Shown one piece after another: positions 905-20,376 of a stretch of 64,000 nt of DNA. Origin of the DNA: Bacteroidales bacterium (lineage in GTDB: Bacteria > Bacteroidota > Bacteroidia > Bacteroidales > M50B96); the NCBI GenBank assembly GCA_021740905.1, contig JAIOYV010000018.1, forward strand, positions 1 through 64,000. Reading direction: 5' to 3'. Numbering within the stretch: the stretch's first letter is position 1; every line of letters begins with the position of its first letter. The position numbers and the translations under genes were made by a program. The notes under the pieces were generated by a model. The model was not told the origin of the DNA. It worked only from the letters and a program-made list of their open reading frames with translations, and did not search any database.

Positions 905-1742
905 ATTTTGGTTTTGGTTCTAAAATATACAGTTCAACAGGTTTAATATGTTTTTTTACCATTTCATAATATTCCGGAACAATGTCAATTCCGATTGAAT
1001 TACGTTTCATTCTACTTGCGACTTTCAATGTTGTACCTGAACCCATAAAAGGGTCAAGTACTGTGTCGTTTTGTTTCGTGAAAAGTTTTATAAACCATTC
1101 TGGTAGTTCTTCAGGAAATGCAGCACTATGATTTTTATTATTACATTCTGTTGCCAAATGAAGAACGTTTGTAGGAAATGCCTTATCTCTGGTTAACCAA
1201 TTTGAGATATTTTTCCCAAAACCACTTCCAACTTTTGAATTGTCTCGAATTTTATCAGTATCAGAAAGATTTTTCAATCTGTTTTTTGCCCAGTCTCCCA
1301 TTGGTACCATAACTTCTTCCTGGTACATATGAAATTTTTTATCTTTATTAAATTGAAGAAGTCTTTCCCAAGAATCACGAAAACGATTTGGCCATTTCCC
1401 AGGATATGAATTTTTCTTATGCCAAATAAATTCTTCTGTCCAGTACCAGCCCTGTTTGCGCATTGCCAAGATTAATTCCATTACATAAGTACTGCGTTCA
1501 CCTGCAACAACCTTTTCCTTTATGTTAAGAATAAAGGTGCCTGTTGGTTTTAAAACTCTAAGTAATTGTTCTGAAATTGGTAAAAACCATTCAACGTATT
1601 TATCTGGGTGAATGCCACCATAGGTGCTTTTTCTTTGGTCCGCATAAGGTGGTGAAGTTACAATCAAGTCAACAGAATTGTCAGGAAGTAATTGTAATTT
1701 TTCCTTACTATCACCCAAATATATGTCAGTAAATATCTCCAT
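864..1742 (-). CDS. Type II DNA methyltransferase, beta class, probably N4-cytosine
   Basis: A 292-residue SAM-dependent DNA methyltransferase. Motif IV is TSPPY (residues 29-33) near the N-terminus, and motif I is DPFMGSGTT (230-238) near the C-terminus, followed by GIDI. This IV-then-I order defines the beta class. The SPPY form of motif IV is typical of N4-methylcytosine enzymes, although some N6-adenine enzymes of the class share it. A family motif HSAAFPEELPEWF lies at about 205-217. It would methylate the target of the overlapping nuclease. It precedes the nuclease, so protection is made before cutting. The target DNA sequence is unknown. Confidence 0.85.
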   Translation of the reverse strand: MEIFTDIYLGDSKEKLQLLPDNSVDLIVTSPPYADQRKSTYGGIHPDKYVEWFLPISEQLLRVLKPTGTFILNIKEKVVAGERSTYVMELILAMRKQGWYWTEEFIWHKKNSYPGKWPNRFRDSWERLLQFNKDKKFHMYQEEVMVPMGDWAKNRLKNLSDTDKIRDNSKVGSGFGKNISNWLTRDKAFPTNVLHLATECNNKNHSAAFPEELPEWFIKLFTKQNDTVLDPFMGSGTTLKVASRMKRNSIGIDIVPEYYEMVKKHIKPVELYILEPKPKYEKSKPERSITVR

Positions 1743-1763
1743 TCTAATTTTTTCTTTATCCTA

Positions 1764-1771
1764 CAAATTTA
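1764..1771 (-). promoter_or_regulatory. -7 element candidate for the methyltransferase-nuclease pair
   Basis: The minus strand reads TAAATTTG, an exact match to the Bacteroidota -7 consensus TAnnTTTG, about 20 nt before the methyltransferase ATG. No TTG lies at the usual -33 spacing, so support is partial. Confidence 0.35.
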
Positions 1772-1844
1772 CCATTTTTTTTTGGTTCGGTTTTTTCCTG
1801 TTTATAAGTTGTCAATTGTATTGTTTTCTTTTTCTTAGCCTGAA

Positions 1845-1851
1845 GCATAAC
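1845..1851 (-). other. Cassette-junction-like 7-mer GTTATGC
   Basis: The minus strand reads GTTATGC in the gap between the recombinase stop and the methyltransferase start. It is the exact complement of the GCATAAC that opens the hairpin at 87-142, about 1.7 kb away. Flanking bases extend the complementarity imperfectly to about 15 bp. In an integron, the 5' boundary of a cassette carries exactly this kind of complement of its own attC R'' box. A terminal inverted repeat of another mobile unit is an alternative. Confidence 0.3.
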
Positions 1852-1862
1852 TTGTTTATAGA

Positions 1863-1919
1863 CCCACCTTTTGTGGGCTTTATTTCTCTATTTCGGCAGA
1901 TAATCCCACCTTTTGAGGG
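1863..1919. repeat. Two near-identical small hairpins after the recombinase gene
   Basis: CCCACCTTTTGTGGG (1863-1877) is a 5-bp stem. A second copy, CCCACCTTTTGAGGG (1905-1919), differs at one base. Both lie just after the recombinase stop on its strand. Neither is followed by a clean T-run, so they are poor intrinsic terminators. They could instead be recombinase binding repeats beside the junction at 1845. Confidence 0.4.
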
Positions 1920-1926
1920 TTTTATT

Positions 1927-3072
1927 TCAAAGGTCAAAATCATCGGTGGGGCTTTTTATGTTTTTCAAATTCTTCATGCTTACCCATGTGTAGCGCTCGG
2001 TTGTTTTGCTGCTCTTGTGCCCTAATAGCTCTTGGATATACCTAAGGTCGACACCCGCTTCCAATAGGTGTGTGGCATAAGAGTGCCGCAAACAATGGGG
2101 TGTGTAGTTATGCGTTGGAAGTATCTTCTGCATATACTTATCGAATATACTCTCGATACTGGTTGAGCTGTACGGGTGCCCCTTTTTTTGTCCTTCTATT
2201 AAGTAGGTTTCGGGTGTTTTACTCAGCATGTACTTTTGTATCATCTGGCTTTGCTTTTCGCTCATGGGCAACATTCGGTCTTTTTTACCTTTTGCATTAA
2301 AGATGGTGATTGCCCCCCTGTTAAAATCAATATCTGCCAACTTTAAATGTATAAGTTCGCTCCTTCTAAGGCCAAGCCCGTAAATCAGGGTCAATGCCAG
2401 TTTATGTTTTGGGTTGGCAATGGATGTAAGCATTTGCTGCAAATGCGGCTTTGCAATTACTTTGGGCAATGTCAACCCTTTTTTTGGCCTGTCGATCAGC
2501 TCAAGCTCGATCTTATTTTTGAATTGGTTTTTGTAAAAAAGCTTGATGCCGTTTATCACCAGGTTTTGGTACGAGGGTGAGTATCCGTAGCGTAAAACAT
2601 ACTCCGTATTGAAACGGATAATATCGTCGTTACAAAGTTCTTCGGCCTTTTTTCCTGCATGAAAAACAAAAAAAGCTTTTAACCCTCCCATGTAATTATT
2701 AATGGTGCTTTCTCCATACCTGTGTTGTTGCATCCAGGTTTTGAAATTATCCATCAATTTTTGGGTGGTACTGTCAATTTTTGATTGATCCACCTTGGGG
2801 CGTAATGGGGCTTCTTCTGTATTTGGCTTTTCGTTATCCGGTGGTGTCAATTTTTTGTAATCGACATAAGCAACCGTTTTCAAGCTCGAGTAAACTTTGT
2901 TTAAATTAAAGTTCTCTTTGGGTATATACCAGAATTTATGGTTCTGGCTCCATCGTGCCACTTTAAGTTTTTTTACCCGTTCAACAAGGGCTTGATTATA
3001 CTCGAAACGCAAAGCCACGGCTTCTTTGCCCTGCTTACATTCGTTCGTAAGTATTATGTGTGGCCTTTGCAT
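1927..3072 (-). CDS. Tyrosine recombinase / site-specific integrase
   Basis: A 381-residue tyrosine recombinase. Residues 1-75 form an extra N-terminal domain common in Bacteroidota integrases. A SAM-like core-binding domain covers about 103-185, and the catalytic domain about 205-381. Catalytic residues are visible: R236 in GLGLRRSEL, a hairpin lysine at K263/264, H326 and R329 in HCLRH, H352 in LLGH and the nucleophile Y361. The C-terminal tail KSPTDD resembles the RSPLD tail of integron integrases. However, the extra segment that IntI proteins carry before the HxxR box appears absent, so it is not a clear IntI. It sits beside a restriction-modification cassette and may mobilise it. Confidence 0.85.
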   Translation of the reverse strand: MQRPHIILTNECKQGKEAVALRFEYNQALVERVKKLKVARWSQNHKFWYIPKENFNLNKVYSSLKTVAYVDYKKLTPPDNEKPNTEEAPLRPKVDQSKIDSTTQKLMDNFKTWMQQHRYGESTINNYMGGLKAFFVFHAGKKAEELCNDDIIRFNTEYVLRYGYSPSYQNLVINGIKLFYKNQFKNKIELELIDRPKKGLTLPKVIAKPHLQQMLTSIANPKHKLALTLIYGLGLRRSELIHLKLADIDFNRGAITIFNAKGKKDRMLPMSEKQSQMIQKYMLSKTPETYLIEGQKKGHPYSSTSIESIFDKYMQKILPTHNYTPHCLRHSYATHLLEAGVDLRYIQELLGHKSSKTTERYTWVSMKNLKNIKSPTDDFDL

Positions 3073-3363: not shown

Positions 3364-4989
3364 TTAAAACCGCTGCCTCAACTGCACATAGAACCGATTA
3401 AACTGATCCTTTCCCTGACCCAGGAATTCGTAGTTGGCCGAGAACGACAGCTTTTTATAAATCCGCCAGTTGAAGTTAAGTTCTACCATGTCCTGAAGTA
3501 GGGTTTCTTCGCTTGAACGATAAAAATAATTTATGTTCTGATAGCTGACCCCGGCCTGCACTTTTCCTTTGAACAGGTCTTTGGATAGCCGGATGCCATA
3601 AAAATTACCGGTAAAATAGGACGATTCAATGTAAGTAGCCGACAAGGTTGTGGAAACATCTAAAGCGGTAAAATTCCGGATATTCACAAACGAATACAGG
3701 TTCTTCGATGCCGATGGATCATTTTTCTGGAAACGGTAGCCTGCGTTGGCACCCAAAGTCACGCGTTTCCAAGGCCGGTAGTTAATCCTGAACCGGTATC
3801 CCTGCCGGGTTTCCCGATCGATCAACTGATCGACAAAACTCTTATAACTTTCATAATAGATCACCTGTTTGCGGGCATCGTAGGATGCAGTCAGACTAAG
3901 TTTTTTAAAGGGTTTGTAGGTGGTTAGCAAATAAATACCCGTGAGGCTAAGTTTGTTCTCGGCTCCCTGATCGGTTTTCCGGTACAGATCCATTTCAAAA
4001 CTACCGAATAAATAAAGTTTTTTCAGCAACTGATTTTGGTGCTGATAGTAGATAAAACGCCTGTCGATATTGCCGTTGTTCCGTTGTTCTGCCACTGCAA
4101 GGGAATTTCTTACATATCCATTTTCGGTCTTCATTTCATGCGCTACATAAGCCCCAAACTGCATCAGGTTTTTGTTGAACGAATAATCCTGATAGTCTGG
4201 GCGTGTGCCGGCCAGAAGCCCCACTTTAAATTTCTTCATTTCAGATTGAAATTGAAGCCCGTCGACTGCCCCCATATTGGATATAAGCGGATTGATTTTT
4301 CTTCCTACTGAAAGGTTTAAGTGGTCTGTCATTTTGTATTGCACCGAAAGGGAATAAATCTTAAGAGCTGAGTTCAGGTCTTTCTTTACCTCGCTCCATT
4401 CCCCTTGCTTATGCCTGAAAGTAATATAGGTTTCGGCAGAAAATTTATCGGAAGGAAATTTATCCGCATTAAGGGAAAGGGTATATTTCATCCGTTGCGA
4501 ATTATCGGCTTCGGTATTCGTAAAGTCAGAATAGGATGCTGCTGCAATTTTTCCTGAAATTAATGCATGGCTGGCCTTCTTTTTTTGCTCGGCAGGTTTT
4601 GCCTCGGCAAGAGTATCAGGTTGTACCTCAGTTATTACATTCTTTGTCTCCCTTCCCGTGATCGTCTCCTTCACTCTGTTCTTCTTTTTAAGAGTAGGGA
4701 CAAAGTATATTTTATCCTTTACTTTTGCTGTAATATCCCCAATCGGGTCGCATACACAGGAAACCGAAGACTTGCTGGCAACCACTAGAGCCGGGACTAA
4801 TTTACCGGCTGATTGCAGAAAGAGCGTATCGCCTATCTGAATATCTTCAGTAGAAGGATATTTCACATAAAAGTGCTGTGAACTTTTAAAGGTAAGCTCA
4901 CCCTCGACCGGTTCGGATGTGTTTTGTGCCTGTAGCTGAGTAACAGACAGCAAGACCATAATCACAAAAAACAGGCTCTTTATTTTCAT
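3364..4989 (-). CDS. Outer-membrane beta-barrel protein at the end of the multiheme cytochrome operon
   Basis: The chosen start gives 541 residues with a clear signal peptide (MKIKSLFFVIMVLLSVTQ, then LQAQ). The frame is open further upstream into the cytochrome gene, with alternative starts at 5040 and 5115. An N-terminal region of about 120 residues and a Lys/Ala/Glu-rich linker precede a long C-terminal region. That region has alternating polar and aromatic residues and a C-terminal phenylalanine, typical of outer-membrane barrels. I do not recognise the family. As the last gene of an operon with 70 heme-binding motifs, it may be the porin through which a cytochrome passes electrons across the outer membrane, analogous to MtrB/OmbB. 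That role is inferred from context. Confidence 0.65.
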   Translation of the reverse strand: MKIKSLFFVIMVLLSVTQLQAQNTSEPVEGELTFKSSQHFYVKYPSTEDIQIGDTLFLQSAGKLVPALVVASKSSVSCVCDPIGDITAKVKDKIYFVPTLKKKNRVKETITGRETKNVITEVQPDTLAEAKPAEQKKKASHALISGKIAAASYSDFTNTEADNSQRMKYTLSLNADKFPSDKFSAETYITFRHKQGEWSEVKKDLNSALKIYSLSVQYKMTDHLNLSVGRKINPLISNMGAVDGLQFQSEMKKFKVGLLAGTRPDYQDYSFNKNLMQFGAYVAHEMKTENGYVRNSLAVAEQRNNGNIDRRFIYYQHQNQLLKKLYLFGSFEMDLYRKTDQGAENKLSLTGIYLLTTYKPFKKLSLTASYDARKQVIYYESYKSFVDQLIDRETRQGYRFRINYRPWKRVTLGANAGYRFQKNDPSASKNLYSFVNIRNFTALDVSTTLSATYIESSYFTGNFYGIRLSKDLFKGKVQAGVSYQNINYFYRSSEETLLQDMVELNFNWRIYKKLSFSANYEFLGQGKDQFNRFYVQLRQRF

Positions 4990-5053
4990 CCTGTTTTTTG
5001 TTGTTTGAATAACGAAATTTTCAGTTTTGCTTTTCTTCATAGTGATATATTTT

Positions 5054-7393
5054 TCATTTCTCCGATCCTGTGGGATGACAGGCATAACAGGCGTTGCTTT
5101 CCCACACATAGCCACTTACATTATCATGTTCGTCATCCATTTCAGCCTGAAAATGTTCGTGACAATTTACACAACTAAAGGCTTCGTAGTTTCCAGGTGT
5201 GGTATGACAATCGGTACATGAATTCCATTCGCCGTTGTGATGGCCACTGTAAATTGGAAAATATTGTTGGTGATTAAAAGTGGATGGATCCCAGACACTT
5301 GTTGTGTGGCAGGCTGCACAATCGGTTGAAAATTGCGAGCTGGCATGGGGGGGATCATTCGTTGCATTATAATCGCTTTGATGACAACCCACACAATCAG
5401 TCGGGGTATTGGGATAACCATTTTGATGGCAGGCCAGGCAATTGTTGGCAATCGGAACATGCGCCCCGGTCAAAGTCCAATACTGATTATGATTAAAAGA
5501 AGAAGGATCCCAGGCACTCGTAGTATGGCAGGTCTCACAATCGGTCGAAAATTGAGCATTCACATGAGATGGATCGTTGGTCGTATTGTAATCGTTTTGA
5601 TGACAACCTACACAGGCAGTTGGGGTATTCGGGTAGCCATTCTGATGGCAGGCCAGGCAATTATTGGCAATCGGAACATGCGCCCCGGTCAAAGTCCAAT
5701 ACTGATTATGGTCGAAGTTGGCAGGCTCCCAGGCACTTGTTGTATGGCAGGTTTCGCACTCGGTCGAGAATTGTGAACTGGCATGTGGCGGGTCGTTGGT
5801 GGAATTATAATCGCTTTGATGGCAACCAATACACGTAGTCGGAGTGTTGGGATAGCCATTTTGATGGCAGGCCAAACAATTATTGGCAATGGGAATATGC
5901 GCTCCTGTAAATACAAAATACTGATTATGGTCGAAGCTTGAGGGTTCCCAGGCACTTGTGTTATGGCAGCTCTCGCAATCGGTCGAAAGCTGTGAACTCA
6001 AATGTGGCGGGTCATTCGTCGAATTATAATCCGAAGTATGACATTCATAACAAGTAGTAGGCGTATTGGGATATCCATTTTGATGACAAGCCAAACAATT
6101 ATTGGCGATGGGAATATGTGCCCCGGTAAATACATAATATTGGTTATGATCGAAGCTGGAAGGCTCCCAGGCACTTGTCGAATGGCAGCTTTCGCAATCG
6201 GTAGGAAATTGCACACTGGCATGAGGTGGTTCGTTGGTGGTATTATAATCTTCGGTATGGCAAGCAAAACAGGTGTTGGGCGTATTGAGATAACCACTTT
6301 GATGACAGGCCAGGCAATTTTTGGCAATCGGGATATGCGCACCGGTAAATGCGTAAATTGGGCTATGATCATACGTGGAAGGAGTCCATGTGATTTCGGT
6401 GTGACAGGTTAAACATTCCGTATCAAAATCCGCATCTAAATGGTTTGGGTTGATCGGTTGAAGATAATCACTTTCGTGACAACCAATGCAGGTATTCGGT
6501 GTATTGCTAAAATCCGGGTTATGACAGGCAAAACAATCGGAAGCAATGAGGGTGTGTGCCCCATTGAATACATACGTTTCGTTATGGTTTGGAAAAAGTG
6601 CAGGACTCCAACCGGGGATAGTTGTATGACAAACTGAGCAATCCCTATCAATACCCAGTTGGACATGATTGGGCCCTTTGGAAGAATTATAATCCTCTTG
6701 ATGGCATGAAAAACATTCATCCGAAGTATTGGAATAATCTTTCGTGTTGTGACATTCGTTGCAATCATGCACATAATGTCCCTGGGTTAATGGAAAAAAA
6801 TTATGATTAAATCCTGAAGCCCCCCATTCGTAGGCATAGATGTTATGGCACTCCGAGCAATCCTGCGAATAATTGGCCAAAGAATGATCTGGGAAAGTGG
6901 TTGCCATATATTCCTTCTGGTGGCAATCGAAACATTCTACACCCATAGGTTCGAATACCAAAAAATTGTCTGAAGTATGACATTCCCGGCAATCGGCCAT
7001 GGCATGGGCACCAAACAGCGGAAAACGACTTGTCTGGTGGATTTCGCTAATATTGCCAACCAGCCAGGAAAATGGCGTGTGACACCGGTTACAATCTTCT
7101 CCCAGTGTGTTTTGATGAAGGTCGGCGTGGCAATCATTACATTGATTTCCCGCGTCCGAAAAAATAAGAGAGGGATGACATTCCCGGCAATTTACTACCG
7201 TATGTTCACCTACCAAAGGCAGGTTCGTTGTATTGTGATCGAATGAGTAAATCGCCGTATCCAGTTTCCAGCTCTCGGGGCTGTGACAAACACTGCAACT
7301 AATCTTGAAATTGCTGCCATGTGGCATATCAACGAATTGGTATCCAATAATGGCTCCTAACAACACTACGAAAACGACTAACAACCTTCTCAT
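5054..7393 (-). CDS. 31-heme c-type cytochrome with tandem three-heme modules
   Basis: About 779 residues with one N-terminal hydrophobic segment (signal or anchor). I count 31 CxxCH motifs. The chosen start aligns with the start of the 19-heme paralogue upstream; another ATG lies two codons earlier. Residues about 327-691 are five direct repeats of 73 residues. Each repeat has three CxxCH motifs plus three further histidines (in FDH, GAH and PPH contexts), enough for bis-His ligation of every heme. Before and after the repeats it aligns with the 19-heme protein end to end. A periplasmic or surface electron carrier is likely, possibly an extended heme wire. The individual axial ligand pairs are inferred. 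Confidence 0.9.
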   Translation of the reverse strand: MRRLLVVFVVLLGAIIGYQFVDMPHGSNFKISCSVCHSPESWKLDTAIYSFDHNTTNLPLVGEHTVVNCRECHPSLIFSDAGNQCNDCHADLHQNTLGEDCNRCHTPFSWLVGNISEIHQTSRFPLFGAHAMADCRECHTSDNFLVFEPMGVECFDCHQKEYMATTFPDHSLANYSQDCSECHNIYAYEWGASGFNHNFFPLTQGHYVHDCNECHNTKDYSNTSDECFSCHQEDYNSSKGPNHVQLGIDRDCSVCHTTIPGWSPALFPNHNETYVFNGAHTLIASDCFACHNPDFSNTPNTCIGCHESDYLQPINPNHLDADFDTECLTCHTEITWTPSTYDHSPIYAFTGAHIPIAKNCLACHQSGYLNTPNTCFACHTEDYNTTNEPPHASVQFPTDCESCHSTSAWEPSSFDHNQYYVFTGAHIPIANNCLACHQNGYPNTPTTCYECHTSDYNSTNDPPHLSSQLSTDCESCHNTSAWEPSSFDHNQYFVFTGAHIPIANNCLACHQNGYPNTPTTCIGCHQSDYNSTNDPPHASSQFSTECETCHTTSAWEPANFDHNQYWTLTGAHVPIANNCLACHQNGYPNTPTACVGCHQNDYNTTNDPSHVNAQFSTDCETCHTTSAWDPSSFNHNQYWTLTGAHVPIANNCLACHQNGYPNTPTDCVGCHQSDYNATNDPPHASSQFSTDCAACHTTSVWDPSTFNHQQYFPIYSGHHNGEWNSCTDCHTTPGNYEAFSCVNCHEHFQAEMDDEHDNVSGYVWESNACYACHPTGSEK
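5321..6415 (-). repeat. Five tandem 219-bp repeats encoding three-heme modules
   Basis: Five consecutive 219-bp units, with no gap or frame shift, encode 73 residues each. The units nearest the 3' end are almost identical over long stretches at DNA level, while the first unit is more divergent. This suggests recent stepwise duplication. The 19-heme paralogue has one unit at the corresponding place. Confidence 0.9.
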
Positions 7394-7458
7394 TTGCACT
7401 CCTTTTTTATTATTGATAAAGAATCAAATTATGCTGTTCTGTTAATTCTCATCCTATT

Positions 7459-8931
7459 TTATTTATCATCTTCAGTTCCGTCGGGATGACATTCAAAACA
7501 AGCCTGGCTTGTGTACACATAATTATTCACTTCGTTGTGTTCACTATTCATTTCAGCCTGATTATGTTCATGGCAATCAATGCAACTAAATACAGCGTAA
7601 TCCCCCGGAACAGTATGACAATCGGTACAAGTATTCCACTCCCCTTTGTGTTTTCCGCTATAAATAGGGAAATATTGTCCATCATGATCGAAGGTTGCAG
7701 GCTCCCAGGCACTGGTCGAATGGCAGGCCTCACAATCATGACCAAACTGGGCTTGAACATGATTGGGGTCGTTGGCTTGATTGTAATTGGTTTCGTGACA
7801 GGCAAAACAGGTATTGGGTGTGTTCGTGTAGCCATTTTCGTGACAAGCAATGCAATTATTGGCAATTACCTGGTGTGCGCCAGTCAGGGGGTAAAATTCA
7901 TCGTGGTTAACAGTGGCCGGTTCCCAGGAATTTTCAGAGTGGCAAACAGTACATTCGGTACTGAAATTATTGGCTACATGGTTTGGGTCGTCGGTTTGGT
8001 TGAAATCGCTTTGGTGGCAGCCAATGCAGGTTGTAGGCGTATTGGTGAATTCCTGATTATGGCACGCGAAACAGTCGGAAACCATTGCTGCATGGGCTCC
8101 ATTCAAAACATAATAATCATTGTGGTTTGGGAACAAAGCCGGGCTCCAACCAGGGGTAGTTGTATGACAAAAACCACAATCATGATCAATGTTCACCTGT
8201 GAATGATTAGGTTTAGTCGTGGAATTGTAATTTTGTTCATGGCAAGAAAAACATTCCGAAGAAGTAGAGGCAAAATCGGCTGTCTTATGACATTCGGAAC
8301 AATCGTTGATTTGATGCCCCAGTGTTAAAGGAAAATAATTATGATTGAAGCCCGAGCCACTCCATTCATACGAATAAATGTTGTGACATTCGGAACAGTC
8401 CTGCGAAAAATTGGCAAGAACATGATTCGGTGAAGTGGTAGCCAAATATTTACTCTGATGGCAATCGAAACACTCCACGCCCAATGGCTCAAAAGTGACA
8501 AAGTTGTTGGAGGTATGACATTCGATACAATCGGCCATGGCATGAGCACCCAGCAAAGGGAAACGGCTCATTTGGTGGATTTCGGTGATATTGCTGACCA
8601 GCCAGGAATAGGGCGTATGGCAACGTGCACAATCATTCCCCACTGTATTTTGGTGAATGTCGGTATGGCAATCGGAACATTGGTTACCGGCTTCCGAAAA
8701 AATAAGTGTGGGATGGCACTGACGACAATTTACCTGGGTATGTTCACCCACAAGAGGCATATCTGTGGCATTGTGGTCATACGAATAAATTGCTTTATCA
8801 AGTTTCCAACTTTCCGGGCTGTGACAAACATTGCAACTAACTTCAAAATCTTTTCCATGGGGATTATCCACAAATTGGTACCCGATAAATATCCCCAATA
8901 AAACAACGATTATTAATGACAATCTTCGCAT
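7459..8931 (-). CDS. 19-heme c-type cytochrome
   Basis: A 490-residue protein with an N-terminal hydrophobic segment (LIIVVLLGIFIGYQFV) and 19 CxxCH motifs. It has one copy of the three-heme module that is present five times in the downstream 31-heme paralogue. The difference between the two proteins is 12 hemes and about 291 residues, i.e. four modules. Its start codon lies inside the last codons of the 20-heme gene (19-bp overlap, different frame), so the two are probably translationally coupled. The role is inferred as a periplasmic electron carrier in the same chain. Non-motif histidines recur near each heme, as in multiheme cytochromes with bis-His hemes. Confidence 0.9.
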   Translation of the reverse strand: MRRLSLIIVVLLGIFIGYQFVDNPHGKDFEVSCNVCHSPESWKLDKAIYSYDHNATDMPLVGEHTQVNCRQCHPTLIFSEAGNQCSDCHTDIHQNTVGNDCARCHTPYSWLVSNITEIHQMSRFPLLGAHAMADCIECHTSNNFVTFEPLGVECFDCHQSKYLATTSPNHVLANFSQDCSECHNIYSYEWSGSGFNHNYFPLTLGHQINDCSECHKTADFASTSSECFSCHEQNYNSTTKPNHSQVNIDHDCGFCHTTTPGWSPALFPNHNDYYVLNGAHAAMVSDCFACHNQEFTNTPTTCIGCHQSDFNQTDDPNHVANNFSTECTVCHSENSWEPATVNHDEFYPLTGAHQVIANNCIACHENGYTNTPNTCFACHETNYNQANDPNHVQAQFGHDCEACHSTSAWEPATFDHDGQYFPIYSGKHKGEWNTCTDCHTVPGDYAVFSCIDCHEHNQAEMNSEHNEVNNYVYTSQACFECHPDGTEDDK

Positions 8932-10502
8932 TTGAATTCCTTTATTTTATATTCGGTATAAACGACTTGTCCTTCCTGTTTTGGTTTATGGCATTTCTCG
9001 CAGGCCACATCTTTGTGCTTCCCGTCAAGAGGGAATTTGGTGTTGTCGTGGTTGAACTTCGATGGTTTCCAATCCTGGTAAGCGTGGCAGCCCAAACAAT
9101 CGGTCTTCCCATCCACTTCAAATTGGTTGTAATGTTTATCTGTGTGACACTGCACACATTCTGAATTAAGCGATTTAAAACGCTGCACCGGTTTGCTCCC
9201 TTCCTTCTCCACAAAATGACAATCGCGGCAGGTTTTCTCCTTGTGCTTGCCTTCCAGTTCATATCCGGTTTTCAGATGATCAAATTCAACCATTTTCCAT
9301 AAATCGGTTTGATGACAGGAAGTGCACTTGTTCTCGGGATAATATTTTGCATCCATAAACGGATCGTGAATGTTATTGTGGCAATCGTTGCAGGCTTTGC
9401 CAATATTCCGGAACGTCCACCGGTTTTCTTTCTTATGACAGGCAAAACAAGGCGTGGCCAGATGCGATCCATCCAAGGGGAAGATTGTTTTCTGATGCTG
9501 GTCAAATTCAAAAGAAGAAACATCAAAACCATTTTCATCGTGGCAAACATTGCAGTCGGAGTATTTCTTTGGATCAAATTCGCCCTTGTGATAATCGGTG
9601 TGGCAATCGGAGCATCGGGTGTGAGGCAACTTGGTGGTGTAATTCTTTTTATGGCAGGACTTGCAGGTCACAAACTGGTGTTTTCCAACAAGGTCGAAAC
9701 CGGTAGAGCTGTGGTCGAAATCATCCATTTTTTTGATTACATGGAAAGATTGCTCGCTGTGGCATTTTGTGCAGTTCTGGCCAAATTTGTTTTTGTGTAC
9801 ATCTTCGTGGCAACTGGTACAATTTGCAAATTCAACTCCTTTGAATTTCTGGAATTTCTCCCCGGCCACGGTTTCAATCTTATGGCATTTTTCGCAATTT
9901 ACTTCACTGTGCTTTCCGCGTAATGGGAATTCAGTTTTATCATGCCTGAATTTAGGGGCCGGTTTAAAAGCCTTCTGATCGTGGCAATCCAAACAGGATT
10001 TCGACATGGTATTTTGATGATAGTCGGTATGGCAGGAAAGACATTCGGAGTTTAAACCGAGGTATGTGAATTTCTTTTCCTGAATCGATTTTTCCTGAAT
10101 ATTTTTGGATTGGTGGCAGTCGCTGCATTTCTTTTCCCGATGTGCTCCTTCTAATTCGTAACCGGTTTTAGTATGCTCAAATTCTTCTATTTTGAATCGA
10201 ACAATTTCAAATTCGCGCCCATGATGATCGTTGTGGCAGCTAAAACAGTCCTTATCCCGAACCTCGTCACTGACATGATACCCCTTGTTGTTTTTTATCC
10301 TGTCTGCAATTTCGGTATGACACGCAAGGCATTTCTGGTTGGTGACCTTTTTCCCCAGGTCGTGGCACTGCGTACAATTGGACAATCCTTCCAAATGTTC
10401 ATGGTATTTTGATAGTTCACCAGGAGATAGCTGAGCCAAAATCGGCCCTGACAAAAGTATTGCAAAACATACTACCAATAAATTAGAAAAACTCTTTCTC
10501 AT
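8913..10502 (-). CDS. 20-heme c-type cytochrome (cytochrome c3/c7-like repeats)
   Basis: 529 residues with a cleavable-looking signal peptide (LLVVCFAILLSGPILAQ). I count 20 CxxCH motifs, with recurring GKHxxxxCxxCH and EGAH patterns of the cytochrome c3/c7-like superfamily. It is rich in lysine, unlike the two acidic and Asn/Thr-rich cytochromes downstream, so charge complementarity between partners is possible. The last five residues are CEDCH followed directly by the stop codon, so the final heme sits at the very C-terminus. It starts 4 nt after the FAD/Fe-S gene. It is likely the first periplasmic acceptor from the membrane cytochrome b, judged by gene order only. Confidence 0.9.
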   Translation of the reverse strand: MRKSFSNLLVVCFAILLSGPILAQLSPGELSKYHEHLEGLSNCTQCHDLGKKVTNQKCLACHTEIADRIKNNKGYHVSDEVRDKDCFSCHNDHHGREFEIVRFKIEEFEHTKTGYELEGAHREKKCSDCHQSKNIQEKSIQEKKFTYLGLNSECLSCHTDYHQNTMSKSCLDCHDQKAFKPAPKFRHDKTEFPLRGKHSEVNCEKCHKIETVAGEKFQKFKGVEFANCTSCHEDVHKNKFGQNCTKCHSEQSFHVIKKMDDFDHSSTGFDLVGKHQFVTCKSCHKKNYTTKLPHTRCSDCHTDYHKGEFDPKKYSDCNVCHDENGFDVSSFEFDQHQKTIFPLDGSHLATPCFACHKKENRWTFRNIGKACNDCHNNIHDPFMDAKYYPENKCTSCHQTDLWKMVEFDHLKTGYELEGKHKEKTCRDCHFVEKEGSKPVQRFKSLNSECVQCHTDKHYNQFEVDGKTDCLGCHAYQDWKPSKFNHDNTKFPLDGKHKDVACEKCHKPKQEGQVVYTEYKIKEFKCEDCH

Positions 10503-10506
10503 TCGA

Positions 10507-11835
10507 TCAATTGTGTTTTAAAATGGCATCACCAAACTTTTTGGTAATCATAATTCCAATCTTCTCTAAAAATTGGGTGGGCAATTCACCCCCTGCAAAA
10601 ATGTACACCAGGTCGTTTTCATAAGCAAATTCTGTCTCACCTTCCGAAAGAATAAAATCTTTCTCCTGAATCGATTTCACGTGGCTATTAAGCCGGACAT
10701 CCAACATGGACAACTCAATTGCCTCTTTCAAACTTTCAGCATTTTTTGGCTTTATCCGCTTAAATGCCTCACCTCTATACGAGAGGATCACCTCGTTTTG
10801 TTTCATCAACAACAGGGCTGATTCCACTGCCGAATCGCCACCGCCAACCACAAGGATTTTTTTACCCGAAATATCTTCAGGCTCCAACAAGCGATAGGCA
10901 ACTTTCTCCAGGTTTTCGCCCGGAACTCCGAGTTTTCGTGGCGTGCCTCTCCTTCCTATAGATAAAAGTACTTTGTGTGCATGATAGGTTTCGCCATTTA
11001 ATGTGTGGATCCTGAAATTGTGGCCGTCTTCTTCAATGGTCTCCACCTTGGTGTTTTCCTGAATTTCGATCTGATGCTTTGAAAGCACTTCTTTCCAAAG
11101 GGACAATAATTGCGATTTGCTGGTTTCGAATAATTTCACCTTCCCATGCAGGGGCAAATCCATTGGGGCAGTCATCACAATTTTGGAACGGGGAAATGAA
11201 TATACCGTTCCGCCCAAGGTATCCTGATCGAGGGTCTTGAATTTCAGTTTGTGTTTTTTGGCAGTCAACGATGCAGCTATTCCTGCAGGCCCGGCTCCAA
11301 CAATCACCATATCATAGTCGGCACCATGATGTTTTTGCATCGACTTGATCATGTTTTCGGCGGCTTGCTTGCCTTGTTCCACGGAATTTTTGATGAGGCC
11401 CATTCCTCCCAACTCGCCGGCAATAAAAATCCCCGGCACATTGGTTTCAAAATTTTGTTGAATATGCGGAAGGTCTACTCCCCTTGATTCGGTGCCAATA
11501 CAGAGCATAATGGCCTGTGTTGGGCAAGCATGAAAACATGCACCGTGTCCGATACACTGCGACGCATTGATGGTGGTTGCCTTTCCGTTGCGGATGCCCA
11601 GAATATCCTTCTCCGGGCAGGCGCTGATGCAAGCCCCGGTTTTGATACAGCTATTCGGATTCACAACAGGATGCAGAGAAACCGGCTCGTACAAACCATC
11701 TAATTTGGCCTGTACTATTTTAGCATCGGTTTCCTTCGATTTCCGTATTTGCCCACGAATATAGAGCCAGACAAGGATTCCACAAAGCAATGCAGCACCT
11801 CCATAAATCGCAATTTGTTCTATTAGTGATTCCAT
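10507..11835 (-). CDS. Membrane-anchored NAD(P)H-linked FAD / Fe-S oxidoreductase
   Basis: 442 residues from the chosen start, which follows the cytochrome b stop by 1 nt; an ATG 24 nt earlier is possible. Order: one N-terminal membrane helix, a ferredoxin-like domain with two Cys motifs, a segment NVPGIFIAGELGGMG, then an FAD Rossmann motif VGAGPAG and an NAD(P)H motif VVGGGDSAVE. The last two match the thioredoxin reductase fold, but the CxxC redox pair is missing. Both Fe-S motifs read C-x5-C-x3-CP, with Thr or His where the second Cys of CxxCxxCxxxCP would be. The GIFIAGE segment, usually at the end of such folds, lies before the FAD motif. It probably feeds electrons from NAD(P)H into cytochrome b. 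Confidence 0.8.
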   Translation of the reverse strand: MESLIEQIAIYGGAALLCGILVWLYIRGQIRKSKETDAKIVQAKLDGLYEPVSLHPVVNPNSCIKTGACISACPEKDILGIRNGKATTINASQCIGHGACFHACPTQAIMLCIGTESRGVDLPHIQQNFETNVPGIFIAGELGGMGLIKNSVEQGKQAAENMIKSMQKHHGADYDMVIVGAGPAGIAASLTAKKHKLKFKTLDQDTLGGTVYSFPRSKIVMTAPMDLPLHGKVKLFETSKSQLLSLWKEVLSKHQIEIQENTKVETIEEDGHNFRIHTLNGETYHAHKVLLSIGRRGTPRKLGVPGENLEKVAYRLLEPEDISGKKILVVGGGDSAVESALLLMKQNEVILSYRGEAFKRIKPKNAESLKEAIELSMLDVRLNSHVKSIQEKDFILSEGETEFAYENDLVYIFAGGELPTQFLEKIGIMITKKFGDAILKHN

Positions 11836-11836
11836 C

Positions 11837-12805
11837 TTAAAAAATCCATCTGTACCCAAACAAGAGGGTCACAATTACATGAATAATAACAATTATCAAC
11901 ATCACAAAAGCAAAGGGCAAATGCGCCACATGCCAGTATTTAAAAAGGGTTTGCATAAAGAGGAGTCGTTTAATTCGATGATTTAGTATCAGTTCATCCT
12001 TCACCATGCGGAGCACACTTTTTTGTTGCGAATTACTTATCTGGTTGTTTTTGAGAGAACTTCGGACCCTTTTTAAAATTTGGTGATCGTTCATCCTTCT
12101 GTTCCAAACCCTCACAAAAAGATTTTTGGATTCCTCTGCGCCAATATTCTGGGTACTTTCTATAATTACCTGAACCGTTTCGTCTGATAATTGATATTCA
12201 GTGTGAAGGATTTCCCCCAGATCCTTTTTCATATTACTGACTTCATTGAGTGAAAGCTCGCGGCCCTCAATGCTTCTGGGGATACGGATATAGATAAACC
12301 GGCCAATCACACCGCTGGCAAACACTGCCACCATGCTCCAAAAACTGACGGCCACCAATCCGCCAAACTTAAACGAAGTATGAAAAAGGATGAGTACAGG
12401 CCCTAGTGTACAAAGAAAGATATGAAACTCAAGCCAGTTTTTCAGTGTGCCCCAGCGTGAGATTTTTCTCCACCGCTTGCGGACAATATAAGACACCACC
12501 CCAAAAAGAATAAGGAAGGTACCCAATATCCCCATACCATGGCCCCATACTCCACTGGGTTTTAGGTTTTGATAATCGGCATGAAAAACGCGCTCGCCAA
12601 TATCGTTCGTGTAATACGAATATCCCCTCCAGGAAAGATAAGCCACCGCTGCCATGACAATCAGGCTCAGCAATGTTATAAAAATAAAATGTGTTGTTCG
12701 TGACAATATGGACCTCCTGTTTGTTTGAAACCCAAAGATAATACTAATTAAACGGATAATTGATGAGCCAGTTATTATTTGTACCAGCTCTAAATAAGTA
12801 ATCAA
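11837..12805 (-). CDS. Membrane cytochrome b-like electron transfer protein
   Basis: 322 residues with about five membrane helices: 39-60, 89-110, 122-143, 148-172 and 290-316. Histidines fall in or at the edge of helices at 89, 128, 142, 292, 295 and 309, enough for two b-type hemes. A charged helical domain of about 110 residues (180-285) lies between helices 4 and 5. It is the first gene of the operon and is followed by the FAD/Fe-S gene after 1 nt, so both probably form one inner-membrane complex delivering electrons to the periplasmic cytochromes. Heme content is inferred from histidine placement. A quinone-interacting role is possible. Confidence 0.7.
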   Translation of the reverse strand: MITYLELVQIITGSSIIRLISIIFGFQTNRRSILSRTTHFIFITLLSLIVMAAVAYLSWRGYSYYTNDIGERVFHADYQNLKPSGVWGHGMGILGTFLILFGVVSYIVRKRWRKISRWGTLKNWLEFHIFLCTLGPVLILFHTSFKFGGLVAVSFWSMVAVFASGVIGRFIYIRIPRSIEGRELSLNEVSNMKKDLGEILHTEYQLSDETVQVIIESTQNIGAEESKNLFVRVWNRRMNDHQILKRVRSSLKNNQISNSQQKSVLRMVKDELILNHRIKRLLFMQTLFKYWHVAHLPFAFVMLIIVIIHVIVTLLFGYRWIF

Positions 12806-12914: not shown

Positions 12915-14525
12915 TTAGTTCCCTCTGTTCAGACGTCTATAAGAAAGTTTCTTCCAAATGCCATGTGCTAAATCAACTTCCTTTTGTGTTAATCCATAAT
13001 GCAATTTTAAAATTATTTCATTTGTTATTTTCAGAACATCTTCAATGTCGGCTTTATTGCGAATAAGCTGATCTATTTGAGATAGTAGTTTACTGTTGTT
13101 TTTATGATAAGGCAATAAAATTCTTTCTGTTTCATTAGGCATTAATTCCAAAACTCCCCCACCATGGCTACGACCACAAACCTCAGCAAATGCCAAGGAG
13201 AGTGAATTGTAATAACTACAAGTAAAAGCTTTTATATCAGTTCCGTGATACAAGAAAACTCTATGCATTGTGTCAGTTGTATAAGCTTTTGCTTCATTAA
13301 TTATCAAGCGAGGATATAGATTATTCCTTCGAATAAATAACGCATCTGAAATTTTTAAGGATGGAACTACAAACCAATCATTTCGAATACTCGTTTTATA
13401 TCCTTTATGAATGTCTTTACTTTCACCGTATGCAATATATTTCTTCGCCCCGCTATTCAGATTTAGGTTTTCCTTTTCAGGAAATACAAGCAAGTGAGCT
13501 TTAGCTTTTGAAAATTTGTTTTTCTCCCAATCCTCCAGATTGAAAACTACACTGTTAACCTGTACGCTTCTTCCAACCATAGGTTTTGCGTAAATGTGTA
13601 AGTCAAATTCTTCGACAGTAGCAAGAGGTACAGTAAAAAAATCGTTTGAACCAGTAGTGATTCCAACTTCAATATTAGCATACTTACCCATATTAGGTAT
13701 TTTATACTTTGATGAAATCGTTTCTAAAAAATCAATTTCATCCTGCTCTAAAAAATAAAATGTCCATTTGTTCGATTTAAAATCAATGCGCTTTTTCGGA
13801 ATTCTTAATCTAGCCACATCAAGTGATTTTAGTTCACTAGCATCCCTTAATTCAATGTGTTCTATGTTGTGATCTTTCGTATTGTTCTTTTCGCAAAGAA
13901 GTAAAACAATTTCTTGCTGAATATTTGGAAAAACTAATTTCTCAAATGAAATAATATTAATCTTGTTATAAAAATGTGCGATGAAATTTCGTAATTGTTT
14001 CGCAAAAGAAACTTGCAAAATCTCTGCAGGAAGTACAAAGCCGATTTTTCCGCCTTCCTTTTTTAATAGTAAAGAAGAACCTACTACAAAAGAAACCCAG
14101 GCATTTGTAAGTTTAGAATATGTTAAACCTGCTTTAATGAAAATATCAGATGCCTCAATTTGTTGGGTTTTGTTAAAAAACTGATAGCGAATATAAGGTG
14201 GATTTCCTACAACTAAATTGTAGCGCTGTAATGTGTTATTACAGTAAGTGTGAAAGTCATCATTAATAACCTGTTTGTTTTTCAACGTAATTCTCTCCGC
14301 TTTTGCGGCTTCCTCTTCATCATACTCTATAGCTGTAATACTATTATATTGTAATTTATTCTTTTTCAATTGTTCTAAAAAAACTCCATCACCACAACTT
14401 GGTTCTAAAATGTCAAAATGGCTACTGCCATTAATTCCCCATCTCAAGATAAATTCCGCAATAGGTGCTGGAGTATAAAAACCACCTCTTAATTTTTCTG
14501 CTGTTGCATCTGAGATTAGCTTCAT
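12915..14525 (-). CDS. Type II N6-adenine DNA methyltransferase
   Basis: 536 residues. FYTP (16-19) is motif X, EPSCGDGVF (41-49) is the SAM-binding motif I, and NPPY (108-111) is the catalytic motif IV. This X-I-IV order with NPPY marks a gamma-class N6-adenine methyltransferase of the TaqI/Eco57I kind. The C-terminal half (about 270-520) is likely the target recognition domain. It starts 2 nt after the XRE regulator and is followed on the same strand by intergenic DNA before the cytochrome operon. With the PLD-type nuclease upstream it forms a second restriction-modification system. The specificity is unknown. Confidence 0.85.
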   Translation of the reverse strand: MKLISDATAEKLRGGFYTPAPIAEFILRWGINGSSHFDILEPSCGDGVFLEQLKKNKLQYNSITAIEYDEEEAAKAERITLKNKQVINDDFHTYCNNTLQRYNLVVGNPPYIRYQFFNKTQQIEASDIFIKAGLTYSKLTNAWVSFVVGSSLLLKKEGGKIGFVLPAEILQVSFAKQLRNFIAHFYNKINIISFEKLVFPNIQQEIVLLLCEKNNTKDHNIEHIELRDASELKSLDVARLRIPKKRIDFKSNKWTFYFLEQDEIDFLETISSKYKIPNMGKYANIEVGITTGSNDFFTVPLATVEEFDLHIYAKPMVGRSVQVNSVVFNLEDWEKNKFSKAKAHLLVFPEKENLNLNSGAKKYIAYGESKDIHKGYKTSIRNDWFVVPSLKISDALFIRRNNLYPRLIINEAKAYTTDTMHRVFLYHGTDIKAFTCSYYNSLSLAFAEVCGRSHGGGVLELMPNETERILLPYHKNNSKLLSQIDQLIRNKADIEDVLKITNEIILKLHYGLTQKEVDLAHGIWKKLSYRRLNRGN

Positions 14526-14527
14526 TT

Positions 14528-14845
14528 TTAAAATTCCTTTTTAGTAATTAAATACTGTACTTTCTGCTCTGCCACGACTAAAACTTCATTAGCAAAATCT
14601 TCTTTTTCCAAAACTTGGTTAGCAATAGTATCACTTAAAAATACAATGGTTAACTCTTTGTTGCTTACGTTAAAAAAATTGGAGATTTTCTCAATGAGAA
14701 CTTTGGTTGGTTTTCGGCTGTTCTTCTCGATTTTGCCAAGCATAGAAGTGTCAATTCCCAACGCTTCAGCAACTTCTCTCAAGGTTAGTTTTTTTTCCTT
14801 TCTAAGATTTTTAATTGTGTCACCAAATGTCCTGTCTAAATTCAT
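14528..14845 (-). CDS. XRE-family controller protein of the restriction-modification system
   Basis: A 105-residue protein with a helix-turn-helix of the Cro/CI (XRE) type over residues about 8-62 (TLREVAEALGIDTSMLGKIE). It also has a short C-terminal extension. Small XRE proteins placed just before a methyltransferase are classical controller (C) proteins that time nuclease expression. A 7-bp perfect inverted repeat lies 6 nt before its start and covers part of the promoter, consistent with autoregulation. The gene is 2 nt from the methyltransferase gene, so they are co-transcribed. Confidence 0.85.
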   Translation of the reverse strand: MNLDRTFGDTIKNLRKEKKLTLREVAEALGIDTSMLGKIEKNSRKPTKVLIEKISNFFNVSNKELTIVFLSDTIANQVLEKEDFANEVLVVAEQKVQYLITKKEF

Positions 14846-14850
14846 ATTTT

Positions 14851-14871
14851 TTTGGACTATATTTGTCCAAA
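14851..14871 (-). promoter_or_regulatory. Operator-like inverted repeat before the controller gene
   Basis: TTTGGAC-N7-GTCCAAA is a perfect 7-bp inverted repeat centred at 14861, six bases before the controller ATG. It overlaps the -7 promoter element. This is the layout expected of a C-box bound by the controller itself. Binding is inferred, not shown. Confidence 0.55.
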
Positions 14872-14898
14872 TATAGATACTTTAAATAAGATGACAAA
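14868..14898 (-). promoter_or_regulatory. Promoter of the controller-methyltransferase unit (TTTG-N19-TATATTTG)
   Basis: On the minus strand TTTG (14898-14895) is followed after 19 nt by TATATTTG (14875-14868). Both elements and the spacing match the Bacteroidota consensus exactly. Transcription would start about 15 nt before the ATG, leaving a very short leader. Confidence 0.6.
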
Positions 14899-14941
14899 AA
14901 AATAAACCAAATAGTTTTCAACAATAGATGAAATATCGGAA

Positions 14942-16123
14942 TTAACTAATAATAATTTGAAATGGTTTTCCTTTCCTTTTTGGCAAATAGAGATCAAGCT
15001 TTAAACCTGTAAGATTAGTCTTTTGAATAACTTCACTTAACATTCCCCATGAAATTGAAGTGGTATAATTATGTTGCCCTGCCTCTCCGCTTGGTTTATG
15101 TCTCACTTCAAGATCAAAGATGCCAATAAATTCTTCATTTATAGTAACTTCGAATGGAACAATAGCTGCTTCAACAAAAGGTTTTGACTTTACTTTATTC
15201 CATGTGTATTTTCCAAACAAATTATTTCTGAAATAGGTAGTTTGGTTTATCCGTTTTCCATCCAGCAAAAATTTGTCCTGAACTAAACGTAATCCTCCAG
15301 TAGGATTAGTTCCTGAACGACTTATCTGAACACTTGATGCGGGAAGTTTTCTCCTTGTCCAAACTAATTGGCCTTTCGAAGACTTACGAACACCGGGATC
15401 AACTTTTAATAACTTTGGGGAATTGGAATCTCTTTTTGTTACTATGAATCCAATCGGTATTTTTGCATTGGAGCGCTTTGGGAATATTTGGGAAATATCA
15501 TTTTCAATTTTCTCCTTCTCTTTTTTTTCTGCAACTTCTTGAACCGACTTTTTATCAGCTTCTGTCTGAACTAAATTTAATACCACAAGATCATTAATGA
15601 GTTTTTTGGTAAGTTTTTTCAGGTTTGGATCCTTATGTCTAAAAATACCACTAAAATACTCTTTAAGCTGCTCAATTATATGAAGGTCATCATCAACATT
15701 ATTATCAATACTTACTAGTAATGATGCTTCAATATTTGTGAAAAGACCTCGTGAAGTAAGGTTGGAAGAACCAATTATCAGTTCTGATCTTTCTTTTCCT
15801 TCAAAAAGATAAATTTTTGGGTGAAAAATTATTGAAGAAGGCTGGTAAAAAATATAGGAGTCTACTTTTAAGTCAAGTAAAGACTCCAAAGCTTCTTTTG
15901 AAGTTCCATTCATGTCAACCCCTAAAACAATTTTAATGTTTTTGAGTGTTTTCTTAGCTGTTTCTATATGTTTTGAAAGCCCTTTTACCCCCGATTGACT
16001 GGCAAAAGCTGAAATACCAATAAATGTATGGAATTCCTTATTAGCAAAAAAATTGAGTAATAGATTCCCGACTGAATTTTCGGATTTAGGTTCATATCCC
16101 TGCCCTAAAAATTTAATTTGCAT
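14942..16123 (-). CDS. PLD-type restriction endonuclease (NgoFVII-like)
   Basis: 393 residues. The N-terminal half carries one phospholipase D active-site motif: H101 and K103 in FHPKIYLFEG, then SSN (119-121) and E132. Single-HKD nucleases of this type (BfiI, NgoFVII) act as dimers and need no metal. The C-terminal part (about 240-393) fits the position of the B3-like DNA-binding domain of that family. A Lys/Glu-rich linker lies near 195-215. It is 96 bp upstream of the controller gene on the same strand and is the probable nuclease partner of the N6-adenine methyltransferase. Confidence 0.75.
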   Translation of the reverse strand: MQIKFLGQGYEPKSENSVGNLLLNFFANKEFHTFIGISAFASQSGVKGLSKHIETAKKTLKNIKIVLGVDMNGTSKEALESLLDLKVDSYIFYQPSSIIFHPKIYLFEGKERSELIIGSSNLTSRGLFTNIEASLLVSIDNNVDDDLHIIEQLKEYFSGIFRHKDPNLKKLTKKLINDLVVLNLVQTEADKKSVQEVAEKKEKEKIENDISQIFPKRSNAKIPIGFIVTKRDSNSPKLLKVDPGVRKSSKGQLVWTRRKLPASSVQISRSGTNPTGGLRLVQDKFLLDGKRINQTTYFRNNLFGKYTWNKVKSKPFVEAAIVPFEVTINEEFIGIFDLEVRHKPSGEAGQHNYTTSISWGMLSEVIQKTNLTGLKLDLYLPKRKGKPFQIIIS

Positions 16124-18779: not shown

Positions 18780-18836
18780 GAGTTCTGAGTTGGAGAGTTC
18801 TGAGTTCTGAGTTGAAAAGTTCTGAGTTGGAGAGTT
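18780..18836 (+). repeat. Degenerate GTTCTGAGTT repeat
   Basis: After the PrkA stop, the motif GTTCTGAGTT recurs four times with GGAGA or GAAAA between copies. Related runs lie at 20336-20364, 30821-30857 and 31486-31602, always between genes. Confidence 0.6.
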
Positions 18837-18852
18837 CAAAGTTATAAAACTT

Positions 18853-18918
18853 AATGACTATGGAATGACAATCGAATGACTACTTAATGACCATTGAATG
18901 ACAACTGAATGACTAATG
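18853..18918 (+). repeat. Six 11-bp repeats running into a start codon
   Basis: Six consecutive 11-bp units begin AATGAC (or AATGACT) and end in variable bases. The last unit ends in the ATG of the YeaH gene (18916-18918). A change in copy number would therefore alter the leader next to the start. Confidence 0.7.
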
Positions 18919-20277: not shown

Positions 20278-20335
20278 CATTTGTCTGTAACTTGAAATTG
20301 GAAATTAGAAATTTGGCAGGAAATATTTAACTGGT

Positions 20336-20364
20336 GAACTCAGAACTTTGAACTCAGAACTTGG
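20336..20364 (+). repeat. AACTCAGAAC repeat, two copies
   Basis: Two copies of GAACTCAGAACTT lie just before the SpoVR gene. They are the reverse complement of the GTTCTGAGTT family at 18780. Confidence 0.5.
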
Positions 20365-20376
20365 TAACTTATAATA

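Follow-up and report, generated by a model that had tools for sequence, protein, structure and literature searches.

A conserved Bacteroidota cassette of multiheme cytochromes, a flavoprotein and a predicted outer-membrane barrel as a candidate NAD(P)H-fed electron conduit

The operon at positions 3364-12805 of a 64,000-nucleotide stretch of Bacteroidales DNA (contig JAIOYV010000018.1 of assembly GCA_021740905.1; the whole stretch is called the window here) encodes, on the minus strand and in this order, a cytochrome b, a flavin adenine dinucleotide (FAD) protein, cytochromes with 20, 19 and 31 heme motifs, and a barrel protein. It represents a conserved cassette made of a diheme-type cytochrome b, a membrane-anchored ferredoxin/FAD/NAD(P)H protein (the flavoprotein), a 20-heme cytochrome, one to three copies of an expandable cytochrome, and a barrel. 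The cassette is real, conserved and under-described, and on balance it probably works as a trans-envelope conduit that carries electrons from NAD(P)H outward to an external acceptor.

The proposed route starts in the cytoplasm, where NAD(P)H would reduce the FAD of the membrane-anchored flavoprotein, whose two iron-sulfur clusters would pass electrons to cytochrome b, first to its inner heme and from this to its outer one. From there they would enter the 20-heme cytochrome, a putative periplasmic wire of fixed length built of bis-histidine (bis-His) hemes, and move onward to the cell surface via a cytochrome sheathed by the 22-strand barrel. The expandable cytochrome, with 13 to 88 hemes, would prolong this wire, probably outward, the number of its triheme units setting its reach. 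Cells would likely use it to get rid of electrons, with metal oxides, humics or a partner cell as the external acceptor.

A conserved cassette of five gene types

An earlier note on this DNA had described six genes on one strand in the order given above, with 70 CxxCH motifs, and all of these open reading frames (ORFs) are found at 3364-12805. The three cytochromes hold 20, 19 and 31 motifs, while 500 residue shuffles of each protein give a mean of 0.2-0.4 and a maximum of 3. The note counted six distinct parts. Six genes are indeed present, but since the 19-heme and 31-heme proteins are paralogues within one expandable family, only five gene types make up the conserved core. The operon presumably forms a single transcript, judging only by the gaps and overlaps between its genes; a promoter and terminator scan gave signal no better than shuffles.

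The synteny on which the earlier note had made its reading depend is kept near and far. A panel of 99 genomes, mostly one per family of the window's order, contains the FAD gene, cytochrome b and the barrel all three in the same seven relatives, and the order cytochrome b, FAD, 20-heme cytochrome, expandable cytochrome(s), barrel recurs in all six of the other relatives, one of them interrupted by a contig end. An eighth genome (G071) was considered as an exception with a barrel and none of the other genes; this was rejected, as its 3.4-kb contig carries a partial expandable cytochrome beside a broken barrel frame. A single scan of a genome collection with the FAD protein gave 502 loci, of which the best 80 were read. 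Nearly all of these 80 that are not cut by contig ends keep the same gene order; their record titles name Bacteroidetes groups or merely an 'uncultured bacterium', and the carriers are mostly metagenome-assembled genomes (MAGs) of Bacteroidales. Among the carriers with names are Labilibaculum euxinus A4 and Labilibaculum sp. K2S, along with MAGs labelled Draconibacterium, Prolixibacteraceae and Lentimicrobium; the cultured Labilibaculum have full gene runs.

The FAD protein occurs in 38 of 393 sampled genomes of the window's order (about 10%). Counted by long match it occurs in 39 of 395 sampled genomes of the phylum, or 44 if a partial paralogue is included, and in a sister class it reaches 58 of 245 sampled genomes (24%); this class, that of genome G333, we take as a guess only to be Ignavibacteria. 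Other classes show two arrangements, one with the order of the window, in some cases with an inserted TPR gene, and one that runs cytochrome b, 20-heme cytochrome, expandable cytochrome, barrel, FAD. The barrel lies within the same gene run in 86 of the 113 loci read, a set in which a few genomes are represented twice; most of the others are cut by contig ends, and one locus (L137) has the FAD gene alone. Loci were retrieved via the FAD gene, by which cassettes devoid of it would escape, except in the 99 genomes, which were also searched by barrel and cytochrome b; among these 99, no FAD-less cassette was seen. Over 68 loci, the four core proteins have pairwise distances that correlate at 0.82-0.85, a level reached in none of 999 permutations.

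The cultured strain Emticicia oligotrophica DSM 17448 also has a complete cassette (EMTOL_RS21090-21110) with an adjoining ccsA, on its plasmid pEMTOL02; the genes are annotated there as hypothetical protein, NAD(P)-binding domain-containing protein and cytochrome c3 family protein. In several relatives, as on the plasmid, the operon adjoins a gene for a ResB/CcsA cytochrome c assembly protein; such a gene lies elsewhere in the source genome. No relatives were found in viral contigs. Just upstream of the plasmid cassette, on the opposite strand (L181, 5073-9121), is a run of c-type cytochrome-domain, YceI, DUF5777 barrel and Rieske genes with a sigma-70 factor gene nearby, possibly a companion redox system. 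The inserted TPR proteins of another class, at 2603-3202 of L131 and 15236-15829 of L133, lie between the cytochrome b and FAD genes; one weakly resembles the CcmH/CycH TPR domain, and they are possibly heme-loading helpers.

The cytochrome b and flavoprotein module

Cytochrome b (11837-12706, minus strand, as are all features of the operon below) most likely starts at the TTG at 12706, which has a GGAGG upstream and yields the conserved N-terminus MSxTxH. The protein of about 289 amino acids has five predicted membrane helices. With residues counted from the TTG at 12805, six His are invariant in 34 sequences: H39, H128, H142, H292, H295 and H309. The pairs H128-x13-H142 and H295-x13-H309 place two His 14 residues apart on each of two helices, an arrangement that would hold two stacked hemes b spanning the inner membrane. 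Positively charged stretches follow helix 2 (RKRWRK, in the TM2-TM3 loop) and the anchor helix of the flavoprotein; by the positive-inside rule, they suggest that H128 and H295, the ligands of the inner heme, and the flavoprotein domain are on the cytoplasmic side. Pfam gives weak matches only, to DUF4405 (25 of 34 sequences), b561 and Ni_hydr_CYTB, and a sequence-profile search of the PDB gave chance matches only. The protein resembles NOX and the ferric reductase domain (FRD) in having two helices each with His 14 apart and a cytoplasmic flavin protein as its proposed feed. PF01794 is not among its Pfam matches, and it differs from NOX and FRD in that the flavin is on a separate, ferredoxin-bearing protein. 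Open frames of 731-739 amino acids had the appearance of a cytochrome b-FAD fusion, which was rejected: each holds two separate genes that share a frame, with a few bases between them.

The flavoprotein (10507-11835) starts at the ATG at 11835, and its M9 is invariant among relatives. An N-terminal helix is followed by a two-cluster ferredoxin domain, a permuted FAD-binding segment, and FAD and NAD(P)H Rossmann domains of the YpdA/thioredoxin-reductase kind with the nucleotide-binding motifs GxGPAG and GGGDSAxE. The ferredoxin domain (11506-11670) scores 38.8 against PF13237, above the cut-off of 25.5, and contains C71-x5-C77-x3-C81P and C102-x2-H105-x2-C108-x3-C112P. The six Cys of these motifs, presumed cluster ligands, are the only invariant ones in 24 sequences, and the two CxxCxxCxxxCP motifs of a two-cluster bacterial ferredoxin were not found in these 24, the second Cys being replaced. 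In the first motif that position is T or S in the window's group and mostly C, partly A, in a second group. In the second motif it is H105, invariant in 24 of 24; because a His is invariant where a Cys is expected, one iron-sulfur cluster likely has a His ligand.

The order of the flavin-binding pieces is unusual. Residues 173-435 of the flavoprotein profile align with residues 3-268 of the YpdA-type Bdr 7a7b (1.8e-49), while profile residues 126-143, ahead of them, align with 7a7b residues 277-294. The C-terminal FAD-binding segment of YpdA-type reductases (ETNVPGIFIAGELGG..., at 11365-11469) is found ahead of the GxGPAG motif. The flavoprotein is apparently circularly permuted relative to YpdA, its C-terminal FAD-binding segment moved to the front; although the second piece scores only 4.1 bits alone, the motif ETNVPGIFIAGELGG makes this reading, in our view, convincing. 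The alignment to the YpdA family TIGR04018 agrees, in that the last 50 or so positions are missing and have their counterpart upstream, and the full-length score is 160.5 bits against a cut-off of 339.9. The flavoprotein shares its FAD and NAD(P)H Rossmann domains with YpdA/bacillithiol disulfide reductase and thioredoxin reductase; unlike them, it is fused with a membrane anchor as well as a two-cluster ferredoxin, and it has no conserved disulfide. The rest of the source genome holds weak partial relatives of it only, and no relatives of the barrel. Paralogues of about 830 amino acids occur in other genomes of the phylum (L155, 8662-11148; L146, 5528-8008), and the L155 protein has its ferredoxin part at the C-terminus (residues 745-796), not ahead of the flavin domain.

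The cytochromes, the barrel and their genomic setting

The two kinds of cytochrome c behave very differently in heme number. The 20-heme cytochrome (8913-10502; 529 amino acids, signal peptide, 20 CxxCH) is near-fixed: 61 of 76 uncut ORFs of its class have 20 hemes and eight have 23, while the remaining seven, with 2-19, look like fragments or split genes. Its heme spacing is near-constant across classes. In 43 sequences exactly 20 CxxCH His and exactly 20 other His are invariant. With 20 extra invariant His for 20 hemes, each heme may have two His ligands, which would exclude a substrate site; probably all hemes are bis-His and none is catalytic. The earlier note had allowed that the cytochromes might match a known soluble respiratory enzyme. 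None of the three matches a known enzyme family of NCBIfam above its cut-off, and 20 invariant distal His for 20 hemes fit a wire, not a catalyst. The sequence profile of the 20-heme protein matches 3ov0 (4e-10), which we take to be GSU1996, and more weakly MtrA 6r2q_A (1.1e-4); against TIGR03508, the MtrA/DmsE family, it scores 44.8 bits, the cut-off being 192.2.

The expandable family is represented by the 19-heme protein (7459-8931) and by the 31-heme protein (5054-7393, from the ATG at 7393), which consists of a 10-heme head, triheme repeats and a C-terminal cap. Head spacings in most copies are close to 36,16,16,34,19,25,32,16,25, and the repeat units follow with about 31-37,15,25-28. Within the 31-heme protein, a 73-amino-acid, 3-heme unit occurs about five to six times in tandem (5219-6535), visible in the DNA as a 219-bp repeat at 5281-6349. 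Later units of this gene are 71-80% identical in DNA, from which the expandable cytochrome can be seen to grow by tandem duplication. Heme counts in the family run 13, 16, 19, 22 and onward to a maximum of 88; 43 of 64 uncut copies fit 3n+1, and many of the others have lost one motif within a unit (spacing 42 for 15+28). Since one cytochrome is near-fixed in heme number and the other changes freely, the sequences suggest that the 20-heme protein spans a fixed gap, the periplasm or the barrel, and that the expandable one reaches into a variable space, probably outside. The earlier note had put all three cytochromes in the periplasm; the expandable ones may lie there or beyond the cell.

Tandem c7 domains like those of GSU1996 were considered for the expandable family and rejected: they match weakly, and the heme spacings cycle in the reverse order (15, 25, 33) to those of c7 (24, 14). 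Against PF22113, a surface OmcA/MtrC-type family with a cut-off of 30, the 31-heme protein scores 61.9 and the 19-heme protein 39.5, and general heme families (Cytochrome_C7) score higher. Against TIGR03507 (OmcA/MtrC) the 20-heme protein is far below the cut-off, and the other two are not among the listed matches. The source genome also encodes a separate 932-amino-acid protein with 19 CxxCH (L172, 10163-12961, contig C22), which adjoins a 4-heme protein on the opposite strand. Two further runs, L175 and L176, read by eye from heme counts and gene order, resemble alternative complex III and NrfHA with a cytochrome c assembly gene and suggest a respiring host.

The barrel protein (3364-4989) starts at the ATG at 4989, which gives 541 amino acids in agreement with all relatives, and not at the GTG at 5115. 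A signal peptide and an N-terminal beta domain of about 75 residues precede a linker and a predicted 22-strand barrel (3367-4563; residues 143-541), modelled by AlphaFold2 with a mean predicted local distance difference test (pLDDT) of 74.5 and a predicted template-modelling score (pTM) of 0.60. The model fits known outer-membrane barrels at VIA Z 15.6-19.4, best 5fp2_B (VIA Z 19.4, root-mean-square deviation 4.3, 328 aligned). We hold with fair confidence that the protein is a large outer-membrane barrel, the strand count being a result of the model. The earlier note had left room for a barrel of an unrelated family; the predicted barrel is found in the same genomes as the FAD and cytochrome b genes. 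A sequence-profile search of the PDB gave chance matches only, and PF11854 (MtrB_PioB) is matched by none of 33 barrels at E<=1 and by nothing in the source genome.

This genome comprises 6.5 Mb in 160 contigs and is 97% complete. The operon has about 43% GC against about 33-36% in its flanks, which hold an EcoO109I-type restriction-modification pair with a tyrosine recombinase on one side (152-3072) and an Eco57I-like methyltransferase with a PLD-nuclease gene on the other (12915-16123). The flanking restriction-modification genes and the GC contrast suggest that the operon is an island. Farther along the window, two large AAA-type proteins, a von Willebrand-like protein and a SpoVR-like protein (PrkA-YeaH-SpoVR type) were noted by eye at 16704-25374, and a single ORF of 7302 amino acids with a signal-like start fills 39008-60916, a giant, repetitive and probable surface protein.

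Known conduits and the direction of electron flow

The cassette is best read as working like a porin-cytochrome complex in which an NAD(P)H-linked inner-membrane module replaces the quinol dehydrogenase. It shares with such conduits a conserved operon of an outer-membrane barrel and exported multiheme cytochromes. MtrCAB, MtoAB and PioAB likewise combine a periplasmic multiheme cytochrome and a large barrel in one operon, and the 20-heme protein is weakly homologous to the MtrA/DmsE family. By its sequences, however, the cassette is not a member of the Mtr/Pio/Mto group, because an MtrB-type barrel is absent and the MtrA/DmsE score is far below the cut-off. MtrB has 26 strands; the cassette barrel is not of the MtrB_PioB family and has 22 modelled strands and an N-terminal beta domain. 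The hemes number 20 and 13-88 instead of 10 + 10, and an NAD(P)H module belongs to the cassette itself.

Geobacter Pcc (OmbB-OmaB-OmcB) and the pcc cluster of Ignavibacterium album also join a porin, a periplasmic and a further cytochrome. The latter cluster (IALB_1837-1840), from the same phylum, has a 14-heme periplasmic protein; the part of the published description covered here mentions no cytochrome b/FAD pair in either system (PMC4245776). Geobacter Pcc has 8-heme periplasmic and 12-heme outer cytochromes, whereas the cassette relatives have 20 or 23 and, mostly, 13-88. An uncharacterised seven-gene cluster of an anode-enriched Bacteroidetes MAG, with best matches only in Bacteroidetes and Ignavibacteriae (PMC8258643), resembles the cassette, compared by description only, in its six multiheme cytochromes and one barrel, and differs in that no FAD/Fe-S protein is mentioned. 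Bioanode Ignavibacteria have very large cytochromes of 33 and 40 hemes, within the range of the expandable family; in the portion of that report used here, heme-count variability among homologous cytochromes is called little studied, the porins are called OmbB- or MtrB-like, and no operon with cytochrome b/FAD input is described (PMC7399161). Inner-membrane modules of known Gram-negative conduits are quinol oxidases or dehydrogenases such as CymA, ImcH and CbcL (PMC6295460). The partner in the cassette is instead a flavoprotein, and none of the six proteins has a NapC/NirT (CymA/ImcH-type) Pfam match.

Bacteroidota that express multiheme cytochromes have been proposed to perform direct interspecies electron transfer (PMC7382037), and a 2024 study states that the mechanism of extracellular electron transfer (EET) in Ignavibacteriaceae is not known (PMC10874420). 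A scan of outer-membrane multiheme clusters reported 76 new cytochrome families, which could include those of the cassette (PMC11475568). No description of the six-part combination was found in the open-access literature, where the seven-gene Bacteroidetes cluster was the sole entry of a broadly similar kind, a scope that leaves out most subscription journals and preprints and does not prove priority. To our knowledge MtrCAB, OmbB-OmaB-OmcB and PioAB do not combine these parts, as the earlier note had held. New here are the 20 extra invariant His, the 10-heme head with triheme repeats (13-88), the apparent permutation of the flavoprotein and its invariant His at a cluster-ligand position, and the 22-strand barrel model.

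Electrons might instead flow inward: an external donor, be it Fe(II), a partner cell or a cathode, would feed them through barrel and cytochromes to cytochrome b and on to NAD(P)+, with the membrane potential as the driving force. In principle multiheme wires work both ways, an electrogenic cytochrome b suits inward flow towards an acceptor of low potential, and none of the sequence evidence fixes the direction. The carriers are, however, mostly MAGs of Bacteroidales, an order mainly of heterotrophs, for which disposal is the commoner need, and we regard inward flow as unlikely. We favour outward flow, which is downhill and fits carriers that appear to be heterotrophs.

Slightly less likely again, cytochrome b could oxidise menaquinol, with the flavoprotein as a side entry or a regulatory electron sink, as in the CbcL/CbcBA-fed conduits of Geobacter. 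The additional invariant H39 and H292 leave space for a quinone site, and the DUF4405 and Ni_hydr_CYTB groups, to which cytochrome b is weakly similar, are quinone-linked. On the other hand, the main gene order puts the FAD gene right after cytochrome b, no cassette among the 99 genomes lacks that gene, and the H-x13-H pairs resemble, as a pattern with no database match, the transfer domains of NOX and ferric reductases, which take electrons from a cytoplasmic flavin domain. By a small margin the least probable alternative would have the cytochromes store electrons in the periplasm or supply a soluble-substrate reductase whose gene lies elsewhere, the barrel being an ordinary porin or substrate channel. 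The operon has no surface lipoprotein, its heme count far exceeds what a transfer chain needs and the source genome has other multiheme proteins. Against this, barrel and cytochromes stay together in different classes, as a substrate porin would have no need to do, and 20 of 20 hemes of the conserved cytochrome appear bis-His.

Several points weigh against the outward, NAD(P)H-fed conduit itself. Flow of electrons from NAD(P)H to the outside, unaccompanied by protons, would dissipate membrane potential and conserve little energy as a main respiratory route, and Emticicia oligotrophica, which we take to be an aerobe, implies that dissimilatory metal respiration is not its sole use. One of the 113 loci (L041) has cytochrome b and FAD genes without adjoining cytochromes. 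No lipoprotein or surface-export signal was seen in the expandable cytochromes, and the cytochrome that enters the barrel could be of either kind. The 20-heme protein is assumed to be a rod; its AlphaFold2 model has a pLDDT of 78.5 but a pTM of 0.41, and a fold search of the model against the PDB gave nothing above chance. Because outward flow costs membrane potential, the system may more likely serve redox balancing or transfer to partners than a respiration that yields energy.

More tentative is the fullest form of the proposal, which goes beyond the conduit as such. It describes a quinone-independent route from NAD(P)H to the exterior across both membranes. The parts would be a permuted flavoprotein bearing a His-ligated cluster, the diheme cytochrome b, a periplasmic wire fixed at 20 hemes, a barrel of a new family and a heme wire that is covalently extensible and lengthens by 3-heme units; together they would form a general outer-surface electron system of Bacteroidota.

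Bacteroidota and Ignavibacteria occur on anodes and in metal-reducing communities, and the cassette is a concrete EET candidate for the phylum. The plasmid copy in Emticicia oligotrophica DSM 17448 and the gene runs of cultured Labilibaculum make it testable. If the conduit is real, NAD(P)H would be drained to the outside without quinones, and the cytochromes of 13 to 88 hemes would provide a natural length series of heme wires for relating conduction to length.

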